This document shows positions 1 to 3,004 of a DNA stretch of 64,000 bases, in pieces (position 1 is the stretch's first letter; each line of letters opens with the position of its first letter). Where the stretch lies: the NCBI RefSeq assembly GCF_003264855.1, contig NZ_NFZS01000001.1:620001-684000 (forward strand), in the 5' to 3' direction. Source of the DNA: Dyella jiangningensis. Lineage in GTDB: Bacteria > Pseudomonadota > Gammaproteobacteria > Xanthomonadales > Rhodanobacteraceae. The position numbers were made by a program, and so were the translations under genes. The notes below the pieces were generated by a model. It was not told the origin of the DNA. It saw only the letters and a list, made by a program, of their open reading frames with translations, and did no database searches.

Positions 1-39
1 CTGGCGCTCGACTTCGTGCTCACCGCTTTCCTGATGTGA
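1..39 (+). CDS. mlaE: MlaE permease, C-terminal end only
   Basis: Only the last 12 codons and the TGA stop are inside the window. They read LALDFVLTAFLM, which fits the hydrophobic C-terminal end of MlaE, the inner-membrane permease of the Mla phospholipid ABC transporter. The call rests on this short tail plus position directly before mlaD, as in the usual mlaFEDCB order. The rest of mlaE and presumably mlaF lie upstream of the window. Confidence 0.75.
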   Translation: MALDFVLTAFLM

Positions 40-88
40 GCGCCGCCATGACCGAATTCACCATCAACCTTTCATTGAGGATCGTGCC

Positions 89-940
89 GTGAGCCAGAGA
101 CCCTCCTACGCCGTCGGCACCGGCCTGTTCATCGTGCTTGGCTTCGCTACGCTCGGTTATCTCGCGACCCAGACCACCTCGGTGGTCAATACCAGCCGCG
201 GGCCGACGTACACCGTCGAGGCGCACTTCGCCAACATCGGCCAGCTCAAGGCGCGTGCGCCGGTGAAGGTCGCGGGCGTGCGTGTGGGCCAGGTGCAGTC
301 GATCAATCTGGATCCGGGCAAGGAAACGGCCGACGTGAAACTGGCCATCGACCAGCGCTACGACAAGATCCCCGAAGACACCGTCGCCACCATCTTCACC
401 AGTGGTTTGCTCGGCGACCAGTACGTGGGACTGCAATATGGCAACTCGAAGAAGGCCCTGGCCGACGGCGGCACCCTGTCGCTGACCCGCCCGGCGCAGC
501 AGCTGGAAGAGATGCTGGGCAAGTTCTTCGGCGCCGGTGGCGCCGCGGACAACCTGTCCGGCAGCTATACGGTCAAGGCGCGCTTCACCAATATCGGCGC
601 GCTGTCGGTCGGCGCGCCGGTGAAGATGGCCGGCGTGGCCATCGGCAGCGTCAAGGCGGTGCAGGCCGACCCGGTCAAGCTGGATGCCGAGGTGAGCCTG
701 TCCATCGACAAGAAGTACAGCCAGATCCCCGACGATTCGGCCGCCGCGGTGTTCACCAGTGGTTTGATCGGCACACAGTACGTTGCGATCCAGCCCGGCG
801 GTTCGCCGGACATGTTGAAGGACGGTGACGAGCTCGTGCTCACCCAGTCGGCGCTGCAGATCGAAGATCTCATCGGCAAGTTCCTGGTCAGCGGTTCGCC
901 CAGCGACAAGAAGCCTGCCGACGGCGACAGCAAGCATTGA
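89..940 (+). CDS. mlaD: MlaD substrate-binding subunit with two tandem MCE domains
   Basis: Periplasmic lipid-binding subunit of the Mla phospholipid transporter, anchored to the inner membrane and bound to MlaE. An N-terminal membrane segment (about residues 9-27) is followed by an MCE domain at about 40-118 and a second at about 159-237. Each copy carries TVxAxFxNIG, APVKxAGVxxGxV and FTSGLxGxQYV and is followed by a helical segment of the type QLEEMLGKFF or LQIEDLIGKFL, so the whole unit is duplicated at an offset of about 119 residues. At 283 aa it is about 100 aa longer than E. coli MlaD (about 183 aa, one MCE domain). The GTG start is chosen because GAGGA lies at 77-81, 7 nt upstream. 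It follows mlaE by 49 nt and precedes mlaC. Confidence 0.93.
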   Translation: MSQRPSYAVGTGLFIVLGFATLGYLATQTTSVVNTSRGPTYTVEAHFANIGQLKARAPVKVAGVRVGQVQSINLDPGKETADVKLAIDQRYDKIPEDTVATIFTSGLLGDQYVGLQYGNSKKALADGGTLSLTRPAQQLEEMLGKFFGAGGAADNLSGSYTVKARFTNIGALSVGAPVKMAGVAIGSVKAVQADPVKLDAEVSLSIDKKYSQIPDDSAAAVFTSGLIGTQYVAIQPGGSPDMLKDGDELVLTQSALQIEDLIGKFLVSGSPSDKKPADGDSKH

Positions 941-992: not shown

Positions 993-1664
993 ATGTTGCG
1001 TAGCCTGGCCCTTGCCACCGCCATCGCTTTCGGCGGCGCGATCGCCGCCCCGGCGTTCGCCCAGAACGCCCCTGCCACGGCCGGCGCCCAGCAGCAGCCC
1101 GAGCAGGTGGTGCAGGTCATCGCCGACCAGCTCGCCAGTGCCATCGAAGGGCACCAGCAGCAGCTGAAGAACGATCAGGAAAAGCTGATCGCCGTGATCG
1201 ACGATGTGTTCCTGCCGCACTTCGACATCGACTACGCGTCGATTCTGGTGCTGGGCCAGCACGCCCGCGAGGCCACGCCCGAGCAGCGCGCGCGCTTCGC
1301 CAAGGCGTTCTACAACTCCATCACCCATCGCTACGCGGAAGGCCTGCTCAACTACACCCGCGGCCGCGTGAAGGTGCTGCCGTTCTCCGGCGACCTCAAC
1401 GACAAGCGCACCGTGGTGCGCACGCAGGTGGTGCTGGACGACGGCAAGACCGTCGGCGTGGACTACGCCTTCCGCAAGTCGCGTGACGGCAGCTGGAAGG
1501 CCTACGACGTGATCATCGAAGGCATTTCCTACGTCACCAACTACCGCAACCAGGTGGACGCGGAAATCCGCAAGGTCGGCATCGACCAGCTGACCACCAA
1601 CCTGGAAACCCAGGGCTCCAAGGCGCTGGAAACCATGGAAAAGGACACCAAGGGCAAGTCATGA
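993..1664 (+). CDS. mlaC: MlaC periplasmic phospholipid carrier
   Basis: Soluble periplasmic carrier that shuttles phospholipid between MlaA at the outer membrane and MlaD at the inner membrane. It is 223 aa with a clear signal peptide (hydrophobic core ALATAIAFGGAIAA, likely cleavage after APAFA). The mature part contains the family segments VFLPHFDIDYAS and YNSITHRYAEGLLNY. The frame stays open upstream into mlaD, but the ATG at 993 is preferred because AGGAG at 981-985 precedes it and the signal peptide begins there. It overlaps mlaB by 4 nt (ATGA), which suggests translational coupling. Confidence 0.95.
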   Translation: MLRSLALATAIAFGGAIAAPAFAQNAPATAGAQQQPEQVVQVIADQLASAIEGHQQQLKNDQEKLIAVIDDVFLPHFDIDYASILVLGQHAREATPEQRARFAKAFYNSITHRYAEGLLNYTRGRVKVLPFSGDLNDKRTVVRTQVVLDDGKTVGVDYAFRKSRDGSWKAYDVIIEGISYVTNYRNQVDAEIRKVGIDQLTTNLETQGSKALETMEKDTKGKS

Positions 1665-1966
1665 GCGACGCCGCCGCGCCCATGCAGGTCGACGACATCA
1701 CACCCGACACCGTACGCGTGTCGGGCGTGCTCATCTTCGCCAACGCCGCGAAGGCACTGGACGTGATGGCAGCCGCCGTGGCGCGCGAGGGTCGCCGGGT
1801 GCTCGATCTGTCGGGCGTCACCCGCAGCGACAGCGCCGGCTTGGCCTGCGTGCTGGCGGTGCTGTCGGAAGCCGCCGAGCGGGGCCGTCCGCTGACCGTG
1901 CGCAACATGCCCGAAGGCATGCACCTGCTCGCCAGCGTGTGTGAAGTGGAAGGCCTGATGGCCTGA
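1661..1966 (+). CDS. mlaB: MlaB STAS-domain subunit
   Basis: Small cytoplasmic STAS-domain protein (101 aa) that, by family knowledge, binds and stabilises the MlaF ATPase. The conserved STAS loop is seen in VLDLSGVTRSDSAGLACVL, including the serine of DSAG that corresponds to the regulatory Ser/Thr position. It starts inside the mlaC stop and ends the operon, followed by a strong terminator. The partners mlaF and mlaE lie upstream of the window. Confidence 0.92.
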   Translation: MSDAAAPMQVDDITPDTVRVSGVLIFANAAKALDVMAAAVAREGRRVLDLSGVTRSDSAGLACVLAVLSEAAERGRPLTVRNMPEGMHLLASVCEVEGLMA

Positions 1967-2040: not shown

Positions 2041-2877
2041 TCAGTTCTTGATCGGCTGTTTTCCCTGTTCCGGCTGCTTGTTCTCCCAGGAATGCTGCTC
2101 TTCCAGCAGTTCGTCGGGATCGAAGTTCTTGTCCTTCAGGCCCTGCATCTGCTCGATGATCTCGGCCGGCGGGTTGCCGTCGTACAGCTCATACAGGCGC
2201 TGCTGGCGGTAGGCGTCGCGCATGAACACGTACGGGTCGTAGGCCGACTGCAGGAAGCTCTCCGCATCGATGCCGCGCGAGCGCAGCGTCACCAGGTAGA
2301 ACAGCTCAGGCAGGTACTCCTGGCCGTACTCGAAGTCGTGGTTGCGCGAGTAATAGCTCAGCGGGTCGAAGAAGTAGCTGTCCACCGGCAGGCGCCACAC
2401 GTCGCGGGCCGTGGTCGGGCCGACGAACGGCAGCACCAGGTAGCCGCCTTCCGGCACGCCCCAGCGCGCCAGGGTGATGCCGAAATCCGTATCCTGCAGC
2501 GGGATGCCCAGCTGGCTGGCCGGGTCGAAGAAGCCGCCGATGCCCAGGGTCAGGTTGACCAGGAAGCGGCCCGTGCTCTGCGCCGCCTGCATCGGGCGCG
2601 CCTGCAGCAGGTCGTTGGCGACCGTGATCGGCATGCGGATATTGGTGAAGAAGTCGCTCACGGCACGGCGCACCGGCGGATTGGTCACCTTGCGGTAACC
2701 CACCGCGACCGGCCGGATGATCGCCTTGTCCATCGAGTCGTTGAACGCGTACATGTCCCGGTTGAATTTCTCGTAGGGATCGTCGGTACGCGGCTTGGCG
2801 ATGGTGCAGCCCGCCAGCAGGGTGATCGCAACCAAGGGAAGGCTGCGCTTGAGGATTGGGAGGAGGGCGGACGGCAT
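2041..2877 (-). CDS. mlaA: MlaA (VacJ) outer-membrane lipoprotein
   Basis: Outer-membrane lipoprotein that removes misplaced phospholipid from the outer leaflet and passes it to MlaC. The 278-aa product has a lipoprotein signal peptide ending in LLAGC (Cys24), then the MlaA core DPYEKFNRDMYAFND, NLTLGIGGFFDPAS and VPEGGYLVLPFVGPTTARD. The C-terminal tail is charged and glutamine-rich. The frame is open 37 codons further upstream, but the start at 2877 gives the signal peptide directly. Convergent to mlaDCB rather than part of that operon. A TACAAT-like -10 on the minus strand (plus coordinates 2911-2916) may drive it. Confidence 0.95.
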   Translation of the reverse strand: MPSALLPILKRSLPLVAITLLAGCTIAKPRTDDPYEKFNRDMYAFNDSMDKAIIRPVAVGYRKVTNPPVRRAVSDFFTNIRMPITVANDLLQARPMQAAQSTGRFLVNLTLGIGGFFDPASQLGIPLQDTDFGITLARWGVPEGGYLVLPFVGPTTARDVWRLPVDSYFFDPLSYYSRNHDFEYGQEYLPELFYLVTLRSRGIDAESFLQSAYDPYVFMRDAYRQQRLYELYDGNPPAEIIEQMQGLKDKNFDPDELLEEQHSWENKQPEQGKQPIKN

Positions 2878-3004
2878 CGCTGGCAACGGTCCTAGGGGTA
2901 AGTAGAATATTGTACTGGCTGGTTTTTTATTGTGTACAGCCCCCTGCAGTGTTTCGGGGAGCGGCTGCAGGCCGGCTGAACCGCGCATTCTACGGTTTGC
3001 TGCA

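Follow-up and report, generated by a model that had tools for sequence, protein, structure and literature searches.

Two-unit MlaD in Dyella jiangningensis and other gammaproteobacterial lineages: a possible pair of stacked MCE rings between MlaE and MlaC

Introduction

MlaD of Dyella jiangningensis consists of two complete tandem units, each made of an MCE domain and the helix that follows it, and this two-unit form is widespread in the Dyella/Frateuria/Rhodanobacter/Luteibacter group. The gene lies within the window, by which is meant the whole stretch of 64,000 nucleotides that was analysed. Judging from the residues that each unit has kept or lost, we favour, at a probability of about 0.7, a two-storey MlaD with two stacked rings, in which unit 1 would sit on MlaE and unit 2 would receive MlaC. 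A broader claim, to which we give somewhat better than even odds, is that at least four gammaproteobacterial lineages (that is, lineages of the same GTDB class as the window's genome) may independently have inserted whole MlaD units, two in number and once three or more, between MlaE and MlaC, with the same division each time, namely a first ring on the MlaE side and a last ring on the MlaC side, joined via the helices of the first ring. In E. coli, the MlaE-facing and MlaC-facing functions of MlaD are combined in one ring, and their natural separation would offer a way to sort the features needed for lipid hand-over from those needed for coupling to the ABC transporter. Proteins with three or seven MCE domains are already far along, while the duplication in Dyella is limited to one lineage, with single-unit relatives in the same family and parallel cases elsewhere, so that the step from one to two units can be traced residue by residue. 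If ring number does evolve in this way, two-unit proteins would be living intermediates between a one-ring shuttle dock and the many-ring tunnels of PqiB and LetB.

Architecture of the two-unit MlaD

The features of the window that bear on MlaD and its operon are as follows.

1–38, forward strand: 3' end of mlaE, the permease (PF02405, E 3.7e-72, from the frames in locus L117)
89–940, forward strand: mlaD, two tandem MCE-plus-helix units, 283 residues, GTG start (open reading frame, Pfam, NCBIfam)
113–181, forward strand: single N-terminal transmembrane helix, about residues 9–31 (alignment with the N-terminal region of E. coli MlaD)
203–442, forward strand: MCE domain 1, residues 39–118, proposed MlaE-proximal ring (PF02470, 83.7 bits)
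254–256, forward strand: R56, equivalent of R55 in E. coli MlaD, replaced by G in unit 2 (alignment; contact from passages of PMC7784689)
401–418, forward strand: pore loop of unit 1, SGLLGD, canonical (alignment; L106/L107 and E109 in E. coli)
440–472, forward strand: beta6-beta7 loop of unit 1, GNSKKALADGG, turned basic (alignment)
491–529, forward strand: C-terminal helix of unit 1, residues 135–147 (homology; helix at 139–147 in the AlphaFold2 model, low confidence)
530–562, forward strand: short linker joining the units, residues 148–158 (alignment, AlphaFold2 model)
563–799, forward strand: MCE domain 2, residues 159–237, proposed MlaC-facing ring (PF02470, 73.9 bits)
758–775, forward strand: pore loop of unit 2, SGLIGT, still hydrophobic, the following acidic residue lost (alignment)
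797–829, forward strand: beta6-beta7 loop of unit 2, GGSPDMLKDGD, canonical (alignment)
848–889, forward strand: C-terminal helix of unit 2, residues 254–267, canonical (homology to the corresponding helix in MlaD of E. coli and P. aeruginosa)
996–1664, forward strand: mlaC, periplasmic phospholipid shuttle (PF05494, E 2.4e-47)
1661–1966, forward strand: mlaB, STAS domain (PF13466, E 1e-13)
2041–2913, reverse strand: mlaA, outer-membrane lipoprotein, convergent neighbour (PF04333, E 1.4e-66)

The first-pass annotation had read two whole MlaD units at about residues 41–149 and 160–269, boundaries that fit to within about two residues, and had proposed a PF02470 search of the 283-residue protein. 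This search yields two stretches (whole-protein E 4.4e-44, the best stretch being residues 39–118), and in the genome search both score above the cut-off of 25.1 bits. The NCBIfam equivalog for MlaD, TIGR04430, matches the protein in two stretches at 285.6 bits against a cut-off of 135, which places it in the MlaD family, and one stretch alone scores 150.6 bits. Units 1 and 2 align without a gap over 108 residues at 51% identity (E 5e-40), so that chance likeness is excluded, and the helix region after the barrel falls inside the alignment of each unit; the transmembrane helix is mostly invariant in relatives, and about 15 residues remain after unit 2. Against solved structures, the whole protein and unit 1 alone find E. 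coli MlaD first, and unit 2 alone finds P. aeruginosa MlaD first and E. coli MlaD second.

The AlphaFold monomer, built on 47 sequences, is of modest confidence (mean pLDDT 63.7, pTM 0.46) and has two barrels of identical strand order with a helix after the first. Single MlaD cores fit one barrel of it, up to 0.90 of target length among the matches listed. We regard the predicted monomer as uninformative on how the units sit together.

The operon is otherwise normal, as the first-pass annotation had described it, with mlaF, mlaE, mlaC, mlaB and mlaA all present. The remainder of mlaE and mlaF (ABC ATPase, PF00005, E 4.5e-19) lie upstream of the window, and mlaD sits between mlaE and mlaC in the order mlaFEDCB, as expected of a member of the MlaD family; mlaB reaches 26 bits, below the NCBIfam mlaB cut-off of 90. 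Six MCE matches were found in the genome: two in mlaD, one in a 314-residue frame elsewhere on the same contig, and three that share one 564-residue frame on a different contig. The strand opposite mlaD has a 305-residue open frame along the entire gene (window positions 20–937, reverse strand), most likely as a by-product of high GC codon usage. A plasmid search gave matches downstream of mlaD only, at a spoT-like gene (six records).

Relation to known MCE systems

With MlaD of E. coli and P. aeruginosa, the Dyella protein shares the transmembrane helix, an MCE unit with a hydrophobic pore loop, the C-terminal helix, the TIGR04430 match, the gene position between mlaE and mlaC and the presence of mlaA. 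It differs from them in that theirs has one MCE unit and forms one hexameric ring, while the Dyella protein has two units, with the interaction features split between them; the two PF02470 domains thus set it apart from the single-domain type I architecture of Isom et al. and make it a two-unit variant of MlaD. Tandem MCE domains in one chain are also found in PqiB (three) and LetB/YebT (seven), but in Dyella there are two, each followed by an MlaD-type helix segment, and mlaC is kept. The PqiB equivalog gives only 29.1 bits against a cut-off of 525, and the gene is flanked by those for an ABC ATPase, MlaE, MlaC and a STAS protein rather than by one for a non-ABC partner of the PqiA/LetA kind. 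The long MlaD of Veillonella parvula and MpcD of Brucella are likewise lengthened C-terminally; however, their extension is described in passages of the sources as a long helical region, joined in Veillonella by a beta-barrel (PMC10665443; PMC12436622), whereas that of Dyella is a second MlaD unit, and an extended helix with a C-terminal beta-barrel after one MCE domain is absent from it.

According to parts of Isom et al. 2017 (PMC5561183), proteobacterial multi-MCE proteins beyond the three- and seven-domain types occur at far lower frequency, and multi-MCE proteins are proposed to derive from single-domain ones; the wording 'two MCE' is absent from the main text of that paper, whose list of rare architectures is in a supplementary table. 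Short MlaD is restricted to Proteobacteria according to a passage of Grasekamp et al. 2023 (PMC10665443). The passages retrieved for 'tandem MCE' or 'multiple MCE domains' concern the seven-MCE LetB, MAM7 and PqiB, not a two-unit MlaD. Listings and passages of the searchable, mainly open-access literature gave no description of a two-unit MlaD, which is presented as an apparently undescribed form within the known MlaD family.

Distribution within the order

The nearest named locus is that of D. jiangningensis SBZ 3-12, whose MlaD is 97% identical. A genome scan was seeded with the window's MlaD, which favours close relatives; 87 places were confirmed, and the 80 loci obtained (79 records) belong to Dyella, Frateuria, Fulvimonas, Rhodanobacter, Luteibacter and bins of no named genus. 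All 80 named loci encode both units in a single frame, which excludes an assembly artefact. The order was sampled with 398 genomes, of which 377 gave a match. In the window's family, 125 members were sampled: in 94, from 15 genera, the listed match spans both units, and in 31, from 9 genera, it covers one unit only. Among the matches listed, no genus mixes the two forms, and no spanning match comes from the 273 genomes of other families. A single unit was read in all 43 loci (37 genomes) fetched from the nine one-unit genera of the family, and in all 17 loci fetched from other families of the order. One duplication in the ancestor of the Dyella/Frateuria/Rhodanobacter/Luteibacter group may account for the form. 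The first-pass annotation had allowed that the two-domain form might be the norm in this order and already described; it is the norm in one genus group, and no such description came to light in the searchable literature. The observation itself was right, and it is more general than first claimed.

A few records deserve separate mention. One two-unit match (L134, genome G055) contains a single flagged TAG codon in frame and has a last unit too incomplete for the completeness filter; it is either a broken gene or a sequencing error. A contig titled Candidatus Eremiobacteraeota (L102) carries a two-unit MlaD 73% identical to that of the window, and is probably a mislabelled Rhodanobacteraceae-like bin. 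In the complete genome of SBZ 3-12 (CP007444.1), the mlaD region occurs twice (L037 and L076) with identical match values, about 19 kb and 5.07 Mb from the start, and the survey genome G049, with a listed contamination of 9%, has the same two places; this is either a large duplication or an assembly overlap.

Division of interaction features between the units

Units were scored against 113 single-unit sequences, thinned to 68 at 80% identity, and the two-unit set comprised 96 proteins after removal of L134. Own-genome re-reads, the other MCE genes of that genome and longer re-fetches (L001–L006, L187–L190, L247–L250) were excluded before the counts, as were identical sequences, and E. coli residue numbers were taken from alignments with E. 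coli MlaD. In E. coli, as reported in passages of PMC7784689, R55 and R67 of MlaD contact MlaE, R55 touching the periplasmic helix of MlaE, and MlaC docks on the beta6-beta7 loop and the C-terminal helix of MlaD (passages of PMC11289387 and PMC10245069).

The position of E109 is acidic in 67 of 68 single units and in all 96 first units, and in none of the 96 last units; arginine stands at the R55 position in 95 of 96 first units, and glycine in all 96 last units. At the position of R67, 91 of 96 first units have Q, which runs counter to a simple MlaE-side reading. On the MlaC side, every one of the 96 last units has the second glycine of the beta6-beta7 loop, as do 60 of 68 single units and 3 of 96 first units, and the mean charge of this loop is -1.43 in single units, +0.74 in first units and -0.44 in last units. 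Overall, the last unit is closer to the canonical form (240 against 170 bits, 68 single units). A split at the midpoint gives the last unit +68.4 bits in the C half and a neutral +1.7 bits in the N half, because there columns 1–37 favour the first unit (cumulative -21.8, with the cut read off the data) and the following columns the last.

Both units are under purifying selection, which is strongest at the MlaC-facing end of unit 2. Among 32 mlaD genes of the window's group, the median dN/dS (by simple counting, over pairs whose number of silent differences was neither too low nor too high) is 0.22 for the barrel and 0.24 for the loop and helix of unit 1, 0.16 and 0.13 for those of unit 2, 0.17 for the transmembrane part and 0.27 for the linker. 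These values rule out a pseudogene or decay.

Multi-unit MlaD in other families

In a sample of the class (369 genomes, 311 with a match), multi-unit MlaD was found in at least three further families, here called f101, f115 and f160, and 26 of the 30 loci fetched from the class sample families are single-unit. The single f101 genome (G594, locus L261) is two-unit; f160 is two-unit by spanning match in 3 of 12 genomes (L264, L265, L266) and one-unit in the other nine; and f115 is multi-unit in one of two genomes (G608). The f115 gene is broken over two contig ends, with nearly identical units: the first contig (L262, C28) breaks off early in a third unit, after two complete ones, and the second (L263, C21) begins inside a unit and continues with one more full unit, mlaC and mlaB, so that the protein has at least three units. 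In all three families, mlaF and mlaE precede mlaD; mlaC follows closely in f160, lies on the second contig in f115, and stands about 1.4 kb on in f101 (L261), where something else must therefore lie between. In a sample of the phylum (398 genomes, 306 with a match), the only matches of full two-unit length among those listed are the window's genome and one member of its family; two other matches (G953, G923) run from unit 1 columns into unit 2 columns but have the length of a single unit.

Parallel divergence of first and last units

Sequence comparison shows the same sense of divergence between first and last units in each of the four lineages, with some tests weak in two of them; it is the last unit that retains the loop and helix positions of MlaC contact in E. 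coli. In the four proteins of f101, f115 and f160, the E109 position is acidic in 4 of 4 first and 0 of 4 last units, the loop glycine is present in 0 of 4 first and 4 of 4 last units, and R55 in 2 of 4 first and 0 of 4 last units. The arginine is kept by the first unit in three of the four lineages; in f160 neither unit has it, and it is also absent from five single-unit relatives.

Profiles of last minus first units were built from 21 (the thinned set of the window's group), 1, 2 and 1 proteins, so that no more than two sequences represent each of three lineages. The f160 profile omits G1251 (L266), which is nearly identical to G1250 (L265). For f115, L262 supplied the first unit and L263, whose label was changed manually from 'single', the last, each entering the comparison as a piece of its own. 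The six pairs of lineages correlate at r 0.27–0.47, and the sum of correlations, 2.19, compares with 0.14 (sd 0.24) under a conservation-stratified null (0 of 3000 permutations); with columns permuted within conservation classes, each pair has p <= 0.0024. Without the four strongest columns, r drops to 0.11–0.37. Three columns separate first from last units in all lineages: the acid at E109, in first units only; the loop glycine, in last units and at most 10% of first units; and the position of I147, which is L in first and I in last units (L in 1 of 68 single units). Two of the three do so at the residue level, and none such is found after swapping first and last in any of seven lineage subsets. 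Across the six lineage pairs, identical residues arose in parallel in 18 columns (first with first, last with last) against 5 in the swapped pairing, the pairs with f160 showing no such excess (2:2, 2:2 and 1:1). A half-split test reaches significance in two of the four lineages (p 0.004 and 0.026 by permutation, 0.034 and 0.050 by block permutation) and fails in f101 (p 0.23) and f160 (p 0.83); for the window's group, with single units of other families as the yardstick, it gives p 0.014 (block 0.060).

Proposed arrangement and alternatives

A two-ring MlaD had been put forward as a longer lipid channel, and the divergence of the units, repeated in four lineages, fits a stack in which unit 1 would face MlaE and unit 2 MlaC, as far as can be inferred from sequence. 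Six MlaD chains would form two stacked hexameric rings. Ring 1, built of unit 1 and held by the transmembrane helices, would rest on the MlaE dimer and keep the features that face MlaE and the lipid; its helix and loop, seemingly unfit for MlaC docking, would lead via the short linker into ring 2. Built of unit 2, ring 2 would keep the canonical beta6-beta7 loop and C-terminal helix that form the MlaC dock in E. coli, and phospholipid would travel between MlaC and MlaE via two pores in series. If the rings are stacked, the features should be divided between the units, with the same side lost in each lineage.

The alternative to which we give most weight, though it is still unlikely, is a single six-member ring made by three chains that each contribute two MCE domains side by side, with chains and transmembrane helices halved. 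The arithmetic works for two units, and also for three (two chains), and linkers of about ten residues are compatible with it; however, such a ring would expose the two units equally to MlaE and MlaC, and it does not predict that first units lose MlaC-docking features and last units MlaE-side residues, in the same sense, in four lineages. That the protein is a trans-envelope bridge in the making, which would work without the MlaC shuttle as PqiB or LetB do, seems very improbable. Stacked MCE domains do make tunnels in LetB and PqiB, and in Foldseek the monomer model finds LetB chains at the lowest E-values, with alignments across the two barrels, but the LetB and other multi-MCE structures cover it with a TM-score of only 0.27–0.34 of the query among the matches listed, so that its barrel arrangement is not matched by LetB chains. 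Furthermore, mlaC and mlaA are present, the last unit retains the MlaC-docking features, and the two units, followed by only a short tail, fall short of the three of PqiB or the seven of LetB. With mlaC, mlaA and the MlaC-docking end all retained, stacked rings would give the shuttle a taller dock at the inner membrane, not a tunnel across the envelope, and the added ring probably lengthens the dock rather than replacing the shuttle.

The extra unit might also be tolerated as a neutral duplication with no distinct role, an explanation that we think doubtful, at odds below those of the side-by-side ring and above those of the bridge. Unit number does differ between and within families, but the constraint on both units (dN/dS 0.22–0.24 in unit 1 and 0.13–0.16 in unit 2), the lack of any single-unit genome among the 94 in the 15 two-unit genera (among the matches listed, one with a TAG inside the match) and the parallel divergence in other lineages all argue against it.

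Origin of the duplications

The multi-unit MlaDs of f101, f115 and f160 are apparently products of separate duplications. The independence of the four duplications rests on family placement, which is not a decisive test. In the tree, the window's family (12 first and 12 last units, together with 24 single-unit MlaDs) falls in one clade of 51 leaves (support 0.895), which also takes in two f115 units, probably by long-branch or convergent attraction, and one further single-unit leaf. First units are monophyletic (0.82), as are last units (0.99); first and last units together are not, nor are the two f101 units, which fall outside the clade of the window's family. The f160 units lie inside a nine-leaf f160 clade (0.899), and the f115 last unit pairs with its own single-unit sister (0.995). 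Recombination with the other MCE proteins of the genome (the 314-residue frame on C1 and the three-match frame on C4) finds no support in the 51-leaf clade.
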